This document shows, piece after piece, positions 56,039-64,000 of a DNA stretch of 64,000 nucleotides (position 1 is its first letter; every line of letters starts with the position of its first letter). Made by a program: the position numbers and the translations under genes. The stretch is from positions 6,820,001 through 6,884,000 of the forward strand of contig NZ_CP019082.1 in the NCBI RefSeq assembly GCF_001956985.1, read 5' to 3'. This DNA comes from Paludisphaera borealis. GTDB lineage: Bacteria > Planctomycetota > Planctomycetia > Isosphaerales > Isosphaeraceae. A model generated the notes under the pieces. That model saw nothing but the letters and a program-made list of their open reading frames with translations, searched no databases and was not told where the DNA came from.

Positions 56039-57739
56039 TCACCTACGAAGCGAATACAGGCCCATATGCTCGATCATGTCCTGAATCCACGGATTGCTCC
56101 AGGGGCCGCGCGTCGAATAGCCGACCGAAAGGACCGACACGAACAAGGCCAGCATCGCCAGCTTCCTCAGCCAAGGCCGATCGGCGATCGCGTCGAGGGC
56201 CGAGGGGAGCATCAGCAGCCAGAACGGAATCAGCCAGAACAGCCACCGCAGGCCCTGGGTCGCTCCCCCATAGTTGCGGGCTTTCGGGTTCCAGGTATAG
56301 AAGGCGAACAGGATCAAGGTGAGAGCCAGCGTCATCCAGGCGACGGCCGCCATCGGCTTCCCGCCGTCGCGGATCGAGTTCAGCCAGATCACCAATCCGA
56401 GGAGCGCGGTCAGACCGGCGATCACCCAGCCGACCCAGAGGTACGGATGCAGCGCCCCCCCCGACGACAAGAGATCGGGCCGAAACAGATCGACGCCCCA
56501 TACGCCCAGCCCCGCGACCACCAGCCCCACGGCGAGCGCCGCGGCCCCCTTGCCCGAACCTCGCAGGAGACCGACCAACCCGGCCGCCGCGAACAGGAAG
56601 ATCGGCGTGAGAGACCAGAATCCGTGATGCCCGAACGTCATGTGGAACAGGTACAGCCCGTACGACTCGCCGACGATACCGCGCCGGGCCGCTTCCTCGG
56701 GATCGAGCCAGGGGACGTTGAGCGCGTCGAGTTCCAGCGGCGTCTTCCAGAGGCTTCCCTCGAACAGATACGCCTCGGTGCCGAATTCCTCGTAGGCCAG
56801 CGCGAACTTGCCGAAGGCCGCGTACTGCGAGGTCATCAGGGCGAGGATCGGGATGGCGGCGAAGGGGAGGAACCAGGCGAGGGTCTTCGCGGGGAACCGA
56901 AACACGAGGAGCCCGCCGAGCAACGCCACGAACGCCGCCGCCGGCAGCTCGTTGGTCGCCGCGAAGCCCGCCAGGAAACCGACCGTCGCGAACCGCCAGG
57001 CCGAAACCTCGTGCTCGTCCCAGATCCGGAGGAACTGGTAGAGGGCGAAGAACGCGCTGAAGGCGGCCAGCGTGTGGTTGTTGAGCGTCTGCGTGAACGG
57101 CAGCAGGTAGGTCCCGAAGGCCGCGGCGGTCAGGCTGAAGAACCAGGCCCAGTCGGTCTTGGCGTAGCGGTCGAGCAGCCGGCCGAACAGGACGAGGAAC
57201 CCCCAGAACGGCAGGATGTTCAGGGCGATCAGCACCGGCTTGAAATAGAAGATGAAGACCGGCCACTTGACCGGTTGATCGGGGGTCGTCAACACCCCCT
57301 TGACCTTGCCGGGCTTGGTCTCGTCGGGGACCTGCCCCCATCGTGGCTCGCGCTCCTGGAGCACGACCTTTTCGAGCGGCACGCCGGCGATCACCCGCGC
57401 CGGGTAGACCATGGCGGCGATGACGGTCGACAGCAGGGCGGGCTTGCTCGAAAAGTAGTGCTTCTCGCCTTGCCCGTCGGCGCCGATCGCCTTCTGGATC
57501 TTGTCCTGGGTCTCGGACTGCCAGGGGCAGTCGTCGATGACGTAGGTCCCGCGTTCGACCAGGCTCCAGACGGTGCACCAGCGCGAGATGTCGTTGGCGC
57601 CCATCATGGTCGGCTGCCGCAGCAGGATGCCGAGGGCCAGGCCCACGGCCGCGACGATCAGGATCGAACCGGCGATGCGCCGGGGCTCGGGGCGGGGTCC
57701 TCGCGGTTCGACGACGAGGTCAAGATCGGCGTTGCTCAT
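56039..57739 (-). CDS. Polytopic membrane protein, possibly GT-C-like
   Basis: 566 residues with about twelve hydrophobic segments. A loop between the first two helices has MGANDISRWCTVWSLVERGTY, as in GT-C-type glycosyltransferases that carry acidic residues in an exterior loop, but no firm family assignment. It follows the GT2 gene by six bp on the same strand, suggesting work on the same lipid-linked sugar. Function not proved. Confidence 0.65.
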   Translation of the reverse strand: MSNADLDLVVEPRGPRPEPRRIAGSILIVAAVGLALGILLRQPTMMGANDISRWCTVWSLVERGTYVIDDCPWQSETQDKIQKAIGADGQGEKHYFSSKPALLSTVIAAMVYPARVIAGVPLEKVVLQEREPRWGQVPDETKPGKVKGVLTTPDQPVKWPVFIFYFKPVLIALNILPFWGFLVLFGRLLDRYAKTDWAWFFSLTAAAFGTYLLPFTQTLNNHTLAAFSAFFALYQFLRIWDEHEVSAWRFATVGFLAGFAATNELPAAAFVALLGGLLVFRFPAKTLAWFLPFAAIPILALMTSQYAAFGKFALAYEEFGTEAYLFEGSLWKTPLELDALNVPWLDPEEAARRGIVGESYGLYLFHMTFGHHGFWSLTPIFLFAAAGLVGLLRGSGKGAAALAVGLVVAGLGVWGVDLFRPDLLSSGGALHPYLWVGWVIAGLTALLGLVIWLNSIRDGGKPMAAVAWMTLALTLILFAFYTWNPKARNYGGATQGLRWLFWLIPFWLLMLPSALDAIADRPWLRKLAMLALFVSVLSVGYSTRGPWSNPWIQDMIEHMGLYSLRR

Positions 57740-57745
57740 GGCGGG

Positions 57746-58714
57746 TCAGGTCTCGGGGGTGGGGGCGTCCGGATCGATGGTCTCGGCGATGCTGTACATG
57801 TCGGCCGAGCGGATCGAGGACGCGGTCAGAAGTTCGGCGAGGACGCCCAGGCTGAAAAGCTGCACGCCCACCACCAGGAGGGCGATCGAATACAAGAGCA
57901 TCGGCCGGTTGCCGATCGGCCGGTACTCGGGCAGCCAGCTTCCGGCGAGCCAGACGCCCGCGAGGTAGGTCATGCCGAGCAGCCCCAGACCGAGCAAAAC
58001 CAAGCCCGTGCCGCCGAATATGTGCAGCGGGCGATGGCGGAACCGGGTCAGGAAGGTGACGGTCAGGAGGTCGAGGAACCCCTTGAAGAAGCGGGCGACG
58101 CCGTATTTGGAGTGGCCGTGCCGCCTCGGCCGGTGGTTGACTTCCATCTCGCCGACCCGAAAGCCTCGGGCGTGGGCCAGGGCGGGCACGAACCGGTGCA
58201 GCTCGCCGTAGATGCCGACCTCGGCGAGCACCTCGGACCGGTACACCTTGAACCCACAGTTGTGGTCGTGCAAGACGCAGCCCGTCAGGCGGCTGACCAT
58301 CTGGTTGAAGACCCGGCTCGGATAGACCTTGTGCCAGGGGTCGTGCCGCGTCTTCTTCCAACCGCTGACGACGTCGAGCCCCTCATCGAGCCGTTCGAGG
58401 AATCTCGGGATCTCGGCCGGGTCGTCCTGAAGGTCGGCGTCGAGCGTGAAGACCCGCTCGCCGCGCGCGGCCTGGAAGCCGGCCGTCAGGGCCGACGCCT
58501 TGCCGAAGTTGCGGCGGAGCCGGATGGCCGCGACCCGGGGATCGCGGCTCGCGAGGCTGGTTATGACCTCCCACGAGCCGTCGCGGCTGCCATCGTCGAC
58601 GAACAGGAACTCGACCGGCCCCAGCGCTCCTGCCGAGAACACCGCCGAAAGCTCGCGGTGGAGCGCCACGAGGCTGCCTTCTTCGTTGTAAACGGGAATG
58701 ACGACGCTGATCAT
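57746..58714 (-). CDS. GT2-family glycosyltransferase (dolichol-phosphate mannose synthase-like)
   Basis: 322 residues from ATG 58714. GT-A fold: VVIPVYNEEGSLVALHREL, FVDDGSRDGSW and FTLDADLQDDPAEIP (the DxD-type motif), then RRHGHSKYG and two C-terminal membrane helices (GGTGLVLLGLGLLGMTYLAG; PMLLYSIALLVVGVQLFSLG). Such enzymes make polyprenyl-phosphate sugars. It overlaps the YbhN stop by ATGA, and the polytopic protein follows at once. Confidence 0.92.
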   Translation of the reverse strand: MISVVIPVYNEEGSLVALHRELSAVFSAGALGPVEFLFVDDGSRDGSWEVITSLASRDPRVAAIRLRRNFGKASALTAGFQAARGERVFTLDADLQDDPAEIPRFLERLDEGLDVVSGWKKTRHDPWHKVYPSRVFNQMVSRLTGCVLHDHNCGFKVYRSEVLAEVGIYGELHRFVPALAHARGFRVGEMEVNHRPRRHGHSKYGVARFFKGFLDLLTVTFLTRFRHRPLHIFGGTGLVLLGLGLLGMTYLAGVWLAGSWLPEYRPIGNRPMLLYSIALLVVGVQLFSLGVLAELLTASSIRSADMYSIAETIDPDAPTPET

Positions 58715-59748
58715 GACGATCCCGATGTGGAAGGCTGCGGAAGAGGGTTCGGCGGAATGTCGCCGCGCGAGGCCAGCGGCCCGACCGCCAGGGCCGCCAC
58801 GAACTCGGCGGCCACCCAGACGAGCCGCAACACCAGGGCCGCGACCACCGCGAGGTCGACGCCCAGCGCCGGCCCCAAAGCATACATCAAGACGCCTTCC
58901 CGCACGCCCAGGCCGCCGGGAAACACCGCGATTACGAACCCCGCGACCGTCGCCAGCGCCACGCTCGCGACCACCAGCGGATACGTGGCGAGCAGCTCGC
59001 GGTACCCCCACGGGGTCAACCCCCGGACCACCGCGAGCTGGCTCAGCCCCAGCGCCAGCCATGAAAGGCTCGCGCGGGCCAATCCCAGCGCCATCAAGCG
59101 CTTCGTGAAGCGGGGCAGGGCGTCCGGCCCCGCGCCGGGGATCGGCAGGCTCGCCACGAGCGCGATCCGCCGGAAGACCGACGGCCAGACCACCACCAGA
59201 AACCCCAGGCCCAACCCCAGGCTCCCCAGGCTGGCGAGCTGGAAGACCGGAATCGAGGTCGCCCCCAGCACCGGCAGGTTGACCGTCGCCAGCGGCGACG
59301 GCCCCCCCATCGCGAAGCCCGCCGCCGCGATCAGGCCGCCCGACGCCATCATCACGAGCGTCTCGTAGAAGGTCGCGATCGCCGCCGTCGCCCCTCGGGC
59401 GCCGTGCTGCGCCGACATCCCCGCCCGCATCACCACCACCATCGCCTTGCCCGGCACGTACTTGCCCAGGTGGCTGATCAGGTACGCGCGGACCGCCGCC
59501 AAACGCGGGATCGGCGTCGAACTCGCCTTCAAAACGTCGTCGTAAAACAGCGCGCAGAGCGTGAGCCCGACCAGGTAGAGCAGCCCCGAAACCGCCAGGT
59601 AAGCGGGCGAGACCTGAAGCACCAGCTCATGCCGCTTCAGGTCGCTCCACGTCCGCAAGACGTGCCGGCCCACTCCCCACACCACGGCCGCCGCCACCAC
59701 GACCTTGACCGCGAGGATCAACCGCTTTCGCCATCGAACTCGGTTCAT
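58711..59748 (-). CDS. YbhN/lysylphosphatidylglycerol-synthase-like membrane protein
   Basis: 345 residues from ATG 59748; a longer frame to 59904 adds 52 non-coding-like residues. About eight helices with the conserved motif FPGGLGVREG near 300, plus YVPGKAM near 95. The family (UPF0104) includes flippase-like and MprF-type membrane domains. It is the first gene of the YbhN-GT2-membrane run, presumably in lipid-linked glycan handling. Confidence 0.85.
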   Translation of the reverse strand: MNRVRWRKRLILAVKVVVAAAVVWGVGRHVLRTWSDLKRHELVLQVSPAYLAVSGLLYLVGLTLCALFYDDVLKASSTPIPRLAAVRAYLISHLGKYVPGKAMVVVMRAGMSAQHGARGATAAIATFYETLVMMASGGLIAAAGFAMGGPSPLATVNLPVLGATSIPVFQLASLGSLGLGLGFLVVVWPSVFRRIALVASLPIPGAGPDALPRFTKRLMALGLARASLSWLALGLSQLAVVRGLTPWGYRELLATYPLVVASVALATVAGFVIAVFPGGLGVREGVLMYALGPALGVDLAVVAALVLRLVWVAAEFVAALAVGPLASRGDIPPNPLPQPSTSGSS

Positions 59749-60002
59749 GAGGAAGACTTTGCGACGAACACTCGAAACCCGGGGAAACCAGCTCGGCGGG
59801 ACGCGATCGACGTGATCCAAAGTACCGGCCCGTGGAAAACCCGGCAAGTCCCGGGTCGGATCGGCGGCCAGGTGCATCGCTTCGCGCCTGTTTCCGTAAG
59901 ACACCCATCGCCTCCCGACGCGCCCTCGGACTATGATCGATGGAGGTTCGACGTCGACCCCGCCGCGACTCCCCCAACCGACATCCAGCCGAGCTTACTC
60001 TC

Positions 60003-60566
60003 ATGCGAACTTGGTTATCCCAATACATCGAGGCCCAGCATAAGGCCCTCGATTCCGTTCCGCTCGACGCCGTCGAGCGGCTCATCGAGACGGTCCGCCA
60101 GGCGTGGAACGAGGACCGGCAGATCTTCGTGATCGGCAACGGCGGCAACGCGGCCAGCGGGTCGCACTTCGCCACCGACCTGGGCAAGGGGGCGAGCGAC
60201 GTCGCCGGCCGCAGGTTCCGGATCATCACCCTGGCCGACAACGTCGCCTGGCTGACGGCCATCGGCAACGACTACAGCTACGACGACGTCTTCGTCCGCC
60301 CGCTCGAAAACTACGCCCGCCCCGGCGACCTGCTGATCGCCAGCAGCGTCAGCGGCAACTCGCCCAACCTCGTCAAGGCCGTCGAGTGGGCCCGCGCGAA
60401 GGACCTCCGCACCGTCGCCCTGGTCGGCGCCAAGCGCGGCAGGCTGGCGGAACTGGCCGAGCAGACGATCGTCGTCGACGACACGCATTACGGCCGGGTC
60501 GAGGACGTTCAGATGACGATCTACCACCTGATCTGCTACGCCTTCATGGAGAAGAAGCCGGCATGA
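60003..60566 (+). CDS. SIS-domain sugar-phosphate isomerase, GmhA-like
   Basis: 187 residues from ATG 60003. SIS motifs GNGGNAASGSHFATDL near 41-56, SSVSGNSPNLVKAVEWA near 110-126 and VALVGAKRGRLAELA match phosphoheptose isomerase (sedoheptulose-7-phosphate isomerase). It is the first gene of a coupled run; its stop overlaps the next start by ATGA (60563-60566). Confidence 0.85.
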   Translation: MRTWLSQYIEAQHKALDSVPLDAVERLIETVRQAWNEDRQIFVIGNGGNAASGSHFATDLGKGASDVAGRRFRIITLADNVAWLTAIGNDYSYDDVFVRPLENYARPGDLLIASSVSGNSPNLVKAVEWARAKDLRTVALVGAKRGRLAELAEQTIVVDDTHYGRVEDVQMTIYHLICYAFMEKKPA

Positions 60567-61396
60567 AGCCCTCACCGTTCACCTCCGACGTGATCCTCAG
60601 TCCGTCGTTTCAGCCTCGTCCCACCATCAGCCACGTTCTGTTCGATTTCGACGGCACCCTGTCGCTGATCCGCCAGGGCTGGCCCGAAGTGATGGTGCCG
60701 ATGTTCACCGAGATGCTGCCGGCAGTCGACGGCGAGACCGACGACGACCGCCGCCGGTTGGCGTTCGAGGACATCATGCGGCTCAACGGCAAGCAGACCA
60801 TCTACCAGATGATCCAGCTCGCCGACCGGATTCGCGAGCGCGGCGGCGAGCCGCGCGAGCCGCTCTGGTACAAGCACGAATACCTCCGCCGTCTCGACCT
60901 CCGGATCAACGACCGGACCGAGGGCCTGCGCAACGGCACCGTCAAGCCCGAGGCCCACCTCGTGCACGAGGCTCGCTTGCTGCTCGACGATCTCGTCCGC
61001 CGCGGCCTGCCGATGTACCTGGCCAGCGGCACCGACGAGCCGTTCGTGAAGCGCGAGGCCGAGTTGCTGGGACTCACCCATTACTTCGGCCCGCACATCT
61101 ACGGCGCCCAGGACGACTTCAAGACGTTCTCCAAGAAGATGGTCATCGACCGGATCATCCGCGAGAACGACATCCAGGGCGAACAGCTCCTGTCGTTCGG
61201 CGACGGGTACGTCGAGATCCAGAACACCAAGGAAGTCGGCGGCCTGGCCGTGGCGGTCGCCAGCGACGAGGCAAACAACGGCTCGGGCCGGATGGACCCC
61301 TGGAAGCTCGAACGGCTCTCCAGCGTCGGCGCCGACGTCGTCATTCCCGACTTCCGCGACGGCGTCGCCCTCCTGGAGCTGATCCTCGGCTCATGA
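60563..61396 (+). CDS. HAD-family hydrolase
   Basis: 277 residues from the ATG overlapping the SIS stop. HAD motif I DFDGTLSLIRQGW, motif II (LASGTDEPF), motif III Lys in SKKMVIDRI and motif IV FGDGYVEI. The cap is long and helical. It may be the phosphatase step of the same sugar-phosphate pathway, as GmhB is for heptose, but it is not a GmhB orthologue by eye. The stop overlaps the next gene by ATGA. Confidence 0.88.
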   Translation: MKPSPFTSDVILSPSFQPRPTISHVLFDFDGTLSLIRQGWPEVMVPMFTEMLPAVDGETDDDRRRLAFEDIMRLNGKQTIYQMIQLADRIRERGGEPREPLWYKHEYLRRLDLRINDRTEGLRNGTVKPEAHLVHEARLLLDDLVRRGLPMYLASGTDEPFVKREAELLGLTHYFGPHIYGAQDDFKTFSKKMVIDRIIRENDIQGEQLLSFGDGYVEIQNTKEVGGLAVAVASDEANNGSGRMDPWKLERLSSVGADVVIPDFRDGVALLELILGS

Positions 61397-62499
61397 ACAC
61401 CAAGCCCCTCGACCTCACCCGGCTGAAGGTCTTCCCGCTCGAAGAGCGCCAGAGCCTGACCAGGGCCGACGACATCCTCCTCGACCCCGACGCCCCCCCC
61501 GCGCCATGCGCGCCGGCCGTCGCCGACCGCATCGCCGAGTGCGCCCGGCGGATCAAGCGAGCCCGCGAGCAGGGGGCCGGCGTGATACTGATCTACGGCG
61601 CTCACCTGCTGCGGAACGGCACGGCGGCGATCCTGGGACGGATGATGAAGAACGAATGGATCACCCACCTCGCCACCAACGGCGCGGGGACGATCCACGA
61701 CTGGGAATACGCCTGGCTGGGCCGGTCGACCGAGAGCGTGCGGGCGAACGTCCCCACCGGCTCGTTCGGCTCGTGGGACGAGACCGGGCGGAACATCCAC
61801 CTGGCGATCCTCGCCGCCGCGCTTCGGGGTGACGGCTACGGCGTCGGCCTCGGACGGTTCATCGCCGAGGACGGCGTCGACCTCCCCTCGGCCGACGACC
61901 TCGAAGCCGCCATCCGCGCCGAACCCTCGCACCCGCTGACCCCCGCGCGGGCCGACGCCCTGCTGGCGATCCGCGCCCACGGCCTGCCGTCCGGCCGGAT
62001 CGCCGTCCAGCACCGCTGGAAGCACGCCTCGATCCTCGCGCAAGCGTTTCAGCATAGAATCCCGATGACCGTCCACCCGGGCGTCGGCTACGACATCATC
62101 GCCAACCATCCGATCTTCAACGGCGCGGCGATCGGCCGGGCGGCGGGGATCGATTTCAGTCTGTTCGGCGGCTCGGTCGAGACTCTCGATCACGGCGTCG
62201 TCCTGTCGGTCGGCTCGGCGATCATGGGCCCGCAGGTGTTCGAGAAAAGCCTGAGCTGCGTCAACAACCTCCGACTCCAGGACGGCCGCCCGATCGTGTC
62301 GGACCACTCGTTCTACGTGGTCGACCTTCAGGACGGCGGCGGCTGGGACTGGTCGCAGGGCGAACCGCCGAAGACCAACCCGGCCTACTACCTCCGGTTC
62401 TGCAAGAGCTACGCCCGCATGGGGGGCGAGATGCAGTACCTCCAGTACGACAACGCCGCGTTCATCCACAACCTTTACCAGCAGGTCGCCTCCTCATGA
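61393..62499 (+). CDS. Uncharacterised protein of the sugar-kinase cluster
   Basis: 368 residues from the ATG overlapping the HAD stop. No close family recognised. Conserved-looking segments: ILIYGAHLLRNGTAAILGRM, THLATNGAGTIHDWEYAWLG, SFGSWDETGRNIHLAILA and HPGVGYDIIANHP. The glycine-rich NGAGTIHD and GAHLLRNG remind me of deoxyhypusine-synthase-type folds, and it has no signal peptide or membrane helix. Four-base overlaps tie it to the HAD and PfkB genes, so it likely serves the same sugar pathway; its reaction is unknown. Confidence 0.65.
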   Translation: MNTKPLDLTRLKVFPLEERQSLTRADDILLDPDAPPAPCAPAVADRIAECARRIKRAREQGAGVILIYGAHLLRNGTAAILGRMMKNEWITHLATNGAGTIHDWEYAWLGRSTESVRANVPTGSFGSWDETGRNIHLAILAAALRGDGYGVGLGRFIAEDGVDLPSADDLEAAIRAEPSHPLTPARADALLAIRAHGLPSGRIAVQHRWKHASILAQAFQHRIPMTVHPGVGYDIIANHPIFNGAAIGRAAGIDFSLFGGSVETLDHGVVLSVGSAIMGPQVFEKSLSCVNNLRLQDGRPIVSDHSFYVVDLQDGGGWDWSQGEPPKTNPAYYLRFCKSYARMGGEMQYLQYDNAAFIHNLYQQVASS

Positions 62500-63527
62500 C
62501 TCCCGCGCGGTTCCAGGCCGTCACCTCGCAGTATCCGGGGCTCCGAATCGCGGTCGTCGGCGACTTCTGCCTGGATCGATACCTCGAAATCGACCCCGCC
62601 CGGTCCGAGACGTCGATCGAAACCGGCCTGCCGGTCCACAACGTCGTCCGCGTCCGCGCCCAGCCCGGAGGGGCGGGGACGGTCCTGAACAACCTCGTCG
62701 CGCTCGGGATCGGCACAATCGAGGTCGTCGGCTTCCGGGGCGACGACGGCGAGGGCTACGAGCTTCAGCGTGGGCTCGAAGCGTCGCCAGGGGTCTCGAC
62801 CGAGCACTTCCTGACCACCCCCCTCCGCCGCACTTTCACCTACTGCAAGCCCCTGGTCGTCGAGCCCGGCAGGACCCCCGTCGAGCTGAATCGGCTGGAC
62901 TCGAAGAACTGGACCCCGACGCCCGCCGCGATCGAATCCCGCCTGGCCGAGAGCCTCCGGACGGTCGCCCCCCGCGTCGACGCCGTGATCGTCCTTGAAC
63001 AGGTCGACGCGGCCGAGACCGGCGTGGTCACGCGTGGTTTCCTCGAAGCGCTCCGAGCGGTCGCCGAGGCGAACCCCAAGCTGCCGATCCTCGCCGATTC
63101 CCGGCGCGGCCTGGGCGCGTGGCCAAGCGTCGACTTCAAGATGAACGCCGCCGAGCTTTCAGCCCTCCTCGGTCGCGACGAAGTCTCGGCGATCGAGGAC
63201 ATCAAGCGGGCGGCCGTCGACCTGGCCGACCGCAACGGCCGGCCGGTCTTCATCACCCTGGCCGAGCGGGGCATCGTCGCGGCGACTCCCGGCGAGCCGG
63301 CCGAGCACGCACCGGCATTGCCGGTCCGCGGGCCGATCGACGTCGTGGGCGCGGGCGATTCGGTCACCGCCAACCTGGCCGCCGCGCTCGCCGCCGGCGC
63401 GTCGATCCGCGAGGCCGTCGAGCTGGCCGTGATCGCGTCGTCGATCGTCGTTCACCAGCTCGGCACCACGGGCGTCGCCTCCGTGAACGACCTGTCCACG
63501 CTCTTCGACCATCTCAACGCCCCATGA
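62496..63527 (+). CDS. PfkB-family sugar kinase, RfaE/HldE kinase-like
   Basis: 343 residues from the ATG overlapping the previous stop. N-terminal VVGDFCLDRYLEI and GGAGTVLNNLVALG, C-terminal ATP/substrate loop DVVGAGDSVTANLAAAL with the catalytic Asp in GAGDS. The opening resembles RfaE-type heptose-7-phosphate kinase domains; the nucleotidyltransferase domain of HldE is absent, so only the kinase part is encoded. It is a cytoplasmic enzyme. The next gene overlaps by ATGA (63524-63527). Confidence 0.88.
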   Translation: MTPARFQAVTSQYPGLRIAVVGDFCLDRYLEIDPARSETSIETGLPVHNVVRVRAQPGGAGTVLNNLVALGIGTIEVVGFRGDDGEGYELQRGLEASPGVSTEHFLTTPLRRTFTYCKPLVVEPGRTPVELNRLDSKNWTPTPAAIESRLAESLRTVAPRVDAVIVLEQVDAAETGVVTRGFLEALRAVAEANPKLPILADSRRGLGAWPSVDFKMNAAELSALLGRDEVSAIEDIKRAAVDLADRNGRPVFITLAERGIVAATPGEPAEHAPALPVRGPIDVVGAGDSVTANLAAALAAGASIREAVELAVIASSIVVHQLGTTGVASVNDLSTLFDHLNAP

Positions 63528-64000
63528 CCTCCCAACTCGGCCGTCCCCACCCCGCGCGTCTGCCCCTCGACCAGATCGCCGCCGAGTGCGACCTGAAAAC
63601 AACCCGACGATCGGGGCCTGGCGGCCAGAACCGCAATAAGGTCGAGACCGCCGTGGTCCTCACCCACCGCCCGACCGGCCTCGTCGCCGAAGCCTCCGAG
63701 CGCCGGAGCCAGATCGAAAACCGCCGCGAAGCCCTGTTCCGGCTTCGCCTCAAATTGGCCCTCGAAATCCGCTCGCCGATCGAGCCCGAATCCTACGCGC
63801 CTAGCCCCTTGTGGGGGTCGCGGCTGCGCGGGGGCAAGGTCGTCGTCAGCCCCGAGCACGACGACTTCCCGGCGCTTCTGGCCGAGGCCCTCGACGTCCT
63901 GATCGCCCACAAGCTCGAAGTCAAATCGGCCGCCGACGCCCTCGGCTGCTCGTCGACCCAGCTCGTCAAGCTGCTCGCCGCCGAGCCCCGGGCGCTCATC
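63524..64000 (+). CDS. Peptide-chain-release-factor-like GGQ protein (partial at window end)
   Basis: 159 codons from ATG 63524, open to the window edge. TTRRSGPGGQNRNKVETAVV carries the GGQ motif that triggers peptidyl-tRNA hydrolysis, followed by VVLTHRPTGLVAEASERRSQ as in stop-codon-independent release factors of the ArfB/RF-like families. There is no codon-recognition domain seen in the part present. It is attached by ATGA to a sugar kinase, an odd partner, so the fifth gene may simply share the transcript. Confidence 0.85.
   Translation, partial: MTSQLGRPHPARLPLDQIAAECDLKTTRRSGPGGQNRNKVETAVVLTHRPTGLVAEASERRSQIENRREALFRLRLKLALEIRSPIEPESYAPSPLWGSRLRGGKVVVSPEHDDFPALLAEALDVLIAHKLEVKSAADALGCSSTQLVKLLAAEPRALI

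Follow-up and report, generated by a model that had tools for sequence, protein, structure and literature searches.

A recurrent sugar-phosphate gene module that includes a protein of predicted deoxyhypusine-synthase fold in Paludisphaera borealis

In a window of 64,000 nt from Paludisphaera borealis (NZ_CP019082.1, positions 6,820,001 to 6,884,000), four consecutive open reading frames (ORFs) encode a SIS-domain isomerase, a HAD phosphatase, a 368-residue protein of the GSU2086 family and a PfkB sugar kinase, with successive stop and start codons overlapping as ATGA (Table 1). The isomerase, the kinase, the cap-bearing phosphatase and the 368-residue protein, for which we predict a deoxyhypusine-synthase (DHS) fold, belong to a single module that often includes a ROK kinase as well. 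The link between a putative DHS-fold protein and a set of sugar isomerase, kinase and phosphatase is the most useful single result of the analysis. We put the probability that this cassette encodes an undescribed sugar-phosphate pathway at approximately 45%; among open-licence PMC literature, no paper was recognised as describing the cassette. The initial annotation of this stretch had proposed a new activated-sugar or sugar-phosphate pathway. A coupled sugar-phosphate cassette with an uncharacterised enzyme was indeed found, but this cassette does not indicate an activated sugar. The four-base overlaps described there agreed with the ORFs, overlap positions and family matches, and the reported lack of a nucleotidyltransferase was also correct.

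Association of the cassette genes

One set of 80 loci comprised the best 80 of 570 relatives and was thus skewed to close ones; 100 loci were fetched overall, and 68 of them had at least 3 kb upstream and at least 2 kb downstream. Partners were sought within 3.5 kb using profiles of the four genes, which replaced a first neighbour clustering whose crude gene caller had missed HAD or PfkB at certain loci (e.g., L054); beyond the four genes, ten neighbour ORFs were annotated. Of the 68 loci, 25 had both HAD and PfkB close to the GSU2086-type gene, and 5 of these had SIS as well (HAD and PfkB without SIS, 20 loci; PfkB alone, 9; HAD alone, 2). Each cassette protein has family matches, and HAD, GSU2086-type and PfkB genes recur together elsewhere with 38–83% identity; the cassette is therefore beyond chance. 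A four-base overlap was possible in 17/39 pairs of HAD followed by the GSU2086-type gene and in 28/41 pairs of that gene followed by PfkB. The arrangement varied: the order was HAD, PfkB, GSU2086-type in L125, L126 and L131, and PfkB-HAD fusions stood upstream of the gene in L033 (identified by Pfam), L039 and L128 (both by profile). The association exceeds mere adjacency. Conservation of gene order across Planctomycetota had been proposed as a check in the initial annotation. The cassette recurred in Planctomycetota and Verrucomicrobiota records; in the Acidobacteria records examined its genes were present but mostly dispersed.

To cover dispersed partners, 31 genomes with the gene standing alone were chosen, not drawn: 29 came from 34 lone loci, five of which (L042, L049, L052, L098 and L104) were set aside, and the other two, G117 and G089, were included despite loci that stop close to the end of a contig. 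Of these genomes, 19 had HAD and 17 had PfkB (E ≤ 1e-45; weaker matches, which overlap the range of HldE, were uncounted, the HldE of this genome scoring 3e-27). HAD adjoined PfkB in six genomes (G152, G294, G296, G298, G301 and G302), and the two shared one frame in three others (G017, G220 and G310). SIS accompanied HAD and PfkB in G152 and G294 and HAD in G235.

Across 294 Planctomycetota genomes, the GSU2086 family was over its cut-off in 141 and the profile of the cassette HAD matched 25 (E ≤ 1e-30). HAD was found in 20 of 28 genomes with a cassette-type member and in 5 of 266 others (Fisher test, P = 3e-20, uncorrected for kinship), the type having been sorted by hand, mostly from match span and for some genomes from a tree or profile. 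When G145 was moved into the cassette set, the counts were 21/29 and 4/265. With any over-cut-off family member as the criterion, HAD was present in 21/141 genomes, compared with 4/153 without one (P = 2e-4, likewise uncorrected).

A ROK sugar kinase is a recurrent fifth partner. Relatives of the ROK-type ORF of this genome adjoin SIS in four of the seven SIS cassettes (L056, L109, L116 and L132; PF00480 was shown for the relative in L109) and also in L185, L186 and L190. They lie near HAD or PfkB in L222, L225 and L244, and L243 contains a PfkB-ROK-SIS gene run. The window cassette has no adjoining ROK; in this genome, ROK stands beside a second SIS at about C1:7221920-7223571 (L239, 7920-9571). 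A methyltransferase-like ORF, recognised by eye, adjoins the PfkB-ROK-SIS genes at L243 2546-3445 and L241 3825-4724.

Table 1. Positions in the window of the cassette genes, their overlaps and the following ORF
Feature	Position	Strand	Length	Evidence
SIS-domain isomerase of sugar phosphates, GmhA superfamily; altered metal site (H-D...E-H)	60003..60566	+	187 residues	PF13580, 58.6 bits; TIGR00441 (GmhA), 111.4 bits (cut-off 209); alignment of seven cassette SIS proteins
HAD phosphatase, predicted helical cap	60563..61396	+	277 residues	PF00702, 41.2 bits; motif alignment; model
GSU2086-family protein, predicted deoxyhypusine-synthase fold, long type	61393..62499	+	368 residues	NF052581, 327.9 bits (cut-off 250); model and fold matches
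PfkB sugar kinase, nearest HldA/HldE kinase domains	62496..63527	+	343 residues	PF00294, 91.4 bits; TIGR02198 (HldE/HldA kinase), 136.2 bits (cut-off 345); 4e84, E 1e-14
ATGA overlap, SIS/HAD	60563..60566	+		Sequence
ATGA overlap, HAD/GSU2086-type gene	61393..61396	+		Sequence
ATGA overlap, GSU2086-type gene/PfkB	62496..62499	+		Sequence
RF-1/GGQ-type release-factor-like ORF	63524-64000, runs past window end	+		PF00472, 63.4 bits

Three contigs make up the 7.65-Mb genome, and the window is part of contig C1. The SIS frame also has an in-frame ATG at 59940; the L054 protein aligns from 60003. The stop codon of PfkB overlaps the start of a fifth ORF as ATGA at 63524. This release-factor-like ORF was matched, outside its own genome and among the loci searched, only in the two nearest relatives (L054 and L055); ATGA overlaps alone therefore do not define a functional unit, and they were ruled out as proof of a single function. 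The divergent neighbours on the reverse strand (56039-59904) comprise a family 2 glycosyltransferase (PF00535), a sub-cut-off LPG-synthase-TM match and a 566-residue protein without a Pfam match.

Features of the predicted enzymes

The 368-residue protein, listed initially as unknown, scores above the curated cut-off of a named family, NCBIfam GSU2086, which is itself without an assigned function. Among the best 80 of 570 relatives, the closest named one was from Paludisphaera soli (L054; 83% identity). A structure model built from an alignment of 75 relatives had a predicted local distance difference test score (pLDDT) of 94.6 and a predicted template modelling score of 0.92. Foldseek and VIA-align 2 both grouped this model with AgrE/ArgZ, the Methanococcus LOR/SDH protein 3c2q and deoxyhypusine synthases. 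The best VIA match was AgrE (Z 19.7, root-mean-square deviation [rmsd] 3.5, 221 aligned residues); the DHS rows listed gave Z of 15.7–17.9, 233–269 aligned residues and rmsd of about 4, indicating a shared fold. Identity in these structural alignments was 8–18%. In sequence searches against PDB chains, phmmer returned nothing below E 0.59 and a profile of the protein reached ArgZ at E 0.009. The DHS model TIGR00321 gave 12 bits (cut-off 304), and an hhalign comparison against nine DHS-family proteins of bacteria, taken from other genomes, reached a probability of 91 over residues 56–238. The structure prediction and profile comparison suggested in the initial annotation thus yielded a DHS/AgrE fold. 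The combination it had named as fatal to its proposal, a known enzyme of an unrelated pathway in a gene order that is not conserved, was not what we found.

Because of this modelled fold, the protein is probably a nicotinamide adenine dinucleotide (NAD) enzyme. The NAD contacts of an archaeal DHS include Thr-Ala-Gly 101–103 and Asp320, as given in PMC7432094; the stretch matching the former is N96-G97-A98, and the DHS rows carry E or D opposite D353. The (T/N)GA and HD motifs are common to most of the nine bacterial DHS-family rows. All four hhalign runs, which were forced to full length or of low stringency and shared data, and so are not independent, aligned K338 with the SWGK-motif lysine. 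In our alignment that lysine is Lys329 of human DHS, described as the catalytic lysine in PMC7226451. The long type of the family has an insert of about 45 residues (approximately residues 162–206), and K285 is present in 51/51 members. The GSU2086-type gene of Chthoniobacter flavus (L116 6872-8102) matched in two overlapping frames, as if a frameshift had arisen in the gene or during assembly, and G087 has several partial family matches in its contigs C22 and C28, as if duplicated or broken.

The HAD alignment of 31 rows shows no variation at the catalytic aspartates of DxDGT, at K191 or at D214. In the HAD model (pLDDT 94.7; best VIA Z 21.4, with 8h5s) motif I is followed by a helical insert, and the structural neighbours listed are of beta-phosphoglucomutase and phosphatase types, a likeness that does not name the substrate. 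HAD alone had no sequence match in the PDB at E ≤ 0.1. GmhB, the heptose-bisphosphate phosphatase, is a capless HAD-III enzyme. The GAGD motif of PfkB is invariant in 28 rows, and its best solved relative is the heptose-7-phosphate kinase (HldA) 4e84. No fused adenylyltransferase domain was found in PfkB, whose 343 residues matched PfkB and, below cut-off, Phos_pyr_kin.

The closest solved relatives of the cassette SIS are GmhA structures. The zinc ligands of GmhA (H64, E68, Q175 and H183) are stated in PMC5705639 to be completely conserved. In 7/7 full-length cassette SIS proteins both histidines are kept, whereas E68 is changed to D and Q175 to E; an L025 fragment with Q for the first H was left out. 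The same altered site occurs in the second SIS of this genome and in L139. The canonical metal set was found in SIS proteins near a GSU2086-family gene in L024, L033, L118 and L123, and also in L137 and L145. The resemblance of isomerase and kinase to the first steps of heptose activation, noted initially, thus stands for the best solved relatives, but both proteins fall below NCBIfam orthologue cut-offs and two of the four zinc ligands are changed. These cut-offs (111 vs. 209 bits; 136 vs. 345 bits) and the metal ligands of SIS led us to reject simple orthology to an ADP-heptose cassette. A heptose reading is partly supported.

Proposed pathway and alternatives

In the pathway that we propose, a sugar phosphate would be supplied by the ROK kinase encoded beside the second SIS, or by central metabolism, and SIS would interconvert its ketose and aldose forms. 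PfkB would then phosphorylate the sugar phosphate a second time, probably at C1 like HldE, whose reaction is termed 1-O phosphorylation in the abstract of PMC4691232, and HAD would take off one phosphate. The DHS-fold enzyme would act on the sugar phosphate by oxidation, epimerisation or rearrangement, with transient use of NAD+ and perhaps a Schiff base on K338. No cassette member would couple the product to a nucleotide. More tentatively, and with somewhat less confidence, we suggest that the DHS-fold enzyme may have been recruited from amine to sugar-phosphate chemistry, bound NAD+ and the Schiff-base lysine serving in the epimerisation or rearrangement of a (bis)phosphorylated sugar, in a five-enzyme pathway (ROK, SIS, HAD, PfkB and the DHS-fold enzyme) across Planctomycetota, Verrucomicrobiota and Acidobacteriota. 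If so, an entire sugar pathway of several widespread phyla is absent from current maps.

Several observations weigh against the proposed pathway. No partner was found within 3.5 kb in 32 of the 68 loci, and in 12 of the 31 lone-gene genomes the search for HAD found nothing at E ≤ 1e-20. Conversely, G283 (one contig, completeness 100) has HAD and ROK and no GSU2086 match; HAD without a GSU2086 match was also seen in G232, G271 and G281, which are 72–83% complete. A shared fold does not prove shared chemistry. The MAFFT alignment has a gap in the DHS rows opposite K338, and this residue occurs in only 26/51 family members, a distribution that fits the 21 long ones together with L020, L022, L025, L030 and L032. 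The HldE-linked rows printed (L018 and L021) carry another residue there, and on this distribution K338 was rejected as a universal catalytic residue. L032/L148 has K338 and yet stands beside a cytidylyltransferase-PfkB fusion, in a genome (G171) without a HAD match.

A variant supply of ADP-heptose is an unlikely alternative. SIS would form heptose 7-phosphate, PfkB and HAD would give heptose 1-phosphate, the adenylyltransferase of an HldE encoded elsewhere would activate it, and the DHS-fold enzyme would epimerise or control an intermediate. Among solved structures, SIS and PfkB are closest to GmhA and HldA, respectively. GSU2086 relatives adjoin HldE and a SIS in L137, L145 and L152, short relatives elsewhere adjoin HldE and in some cases canonical GmhA, and the canonical-site SIS of L118 and L123 (more loosely, L033) lies near a long-type gene. 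Geobacter insertions in hldE, GSU2086 and gmhA share an electrode-growth defect (values of −3.1, −3.2 and −3.7, as given in PMC5585712), for which polar effects could also account. This genome has HldD (C1:5687283, over cut-off) and, on C2 in what appeared by eye to be a stretch of polysaccharide genes, an HldE that is its only TIGR02199 match, with the adenylyltransferase half over cut-off. Our SIS/GmhA search of the genome found two SIS proteins, both below the TIGR00441 cut-off (111.3 and 107.7 bits vs. 209), and no canonical GmhA; one of the two may thus serve as heptose isomerase, which keeps the ADP-heptose explanation alive. However, HldE already has its own kinase domain, the two zinc ligands are changed in every full-length cassette SIS, and the HldE-linked GSU2086 proteins printed lack K338. 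The ADP-heptose route, moreover, has no step for a ROK kinase.

We judge as no more probable than this the catabolism of an unusual, allose-like free sugar, in which ROK, the isomerase, the DHS-fold enzyme as epimerase and PfkB would act in turn while HAD cleared dead-end phosphates. The known allose route uses AlsK, RpiB/AlsI and AlsE. The ROK genes adjoining SIS, with PfkB, in L185, L186 and L190 and the PfkB-ROK-SIS run of L243 fit such a route, whereas the window cassette lacks an adjoining ROK and none of the ten annotated neighbour ORFs is a sugar transporter or glycoside hydrolase, most neighbour clusters being unannotated. Three related loci (L046, L048 and L051) do have a phosphoenolpyruvate-utilising (PtsI-type) enzyme close to the gene.

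It is improbable that the four members form a housekeeping or metabolite-repair set whose enzymes act on different compounds and are merely co-transcribed. The release-factor-like gene joined by the same ATGA overlap and the many loci without partners are what such a set would predict, but HAD and PfkB remain together or fused when relocated, sometimes with SIS or ROK, and HAD co-occurs with the GSU2086-type gene across the phylum. That the 368-residue protein is a genuine relative of DHS that acts on polyamines or modifies proteins, as the fold alone might suggest, is very improbable given its TIGR00321 score, the separate DHS-family gene of this genome (C1:4087877; 146 bits to PF01916) and recurrent partners that are sugar enzymes.

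Comparison with known systems

For the GSU2086 family (NF052581), until now named and functionless, these results provide a predicted fold, a likely cofactor and pathway partners. They also divide it into members that are mostly HldE-linked and without K338 and members that are mostly HAD-linked and with K338 (one exception seen, L148). The cassette protein resembles the rest of the family in its score and in that relatives also occur in sugar operons; it differs in being of the long type with K338 and in having HAD and a separate PfkB as partners instead of the bifunctional HldE. With deoxyhypusine synthase, the C-terminal domain of ArgZ-AgrE and TIGR00300 (LOR/SDH, 3c2q), it shares the modelled fold over most of the chain and the (T/N)GA and HD motifs, but its identity to them is low, it scores far under the cut-offs of those families and its context is one of sugar genes.

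GSU2086 relatives also adjoin cytidylyltransferase-PfkB fusions and transketolase-type genes in L139 (1-6000) and L148 (1131-7757), with SIS and radical SAM genes in L139; these clusters possibly represent another activated-sugar route. They resemble the cassette in combining a GSU2086 relative with PfkB and, in L139, in the altered H-D...E-H site of SIS, whereas the cassette has neither the nucleotidyltransferases nor the transketolase-type genes found there, and no SIS was found in L148. Finally, the ADP-heptose pathway (GmhA, HldE, GmhB and HldD) uses the same types of isomerase, PfkB kinase and HAD phosphatase. The cassette differs from it in lacking a nucleotidyltransferase, in the altered metal site of SIS, in a HAD with a predicted helical cap, and in the additional, putatively DHS-fold enzyme, often accompanied by ROK.

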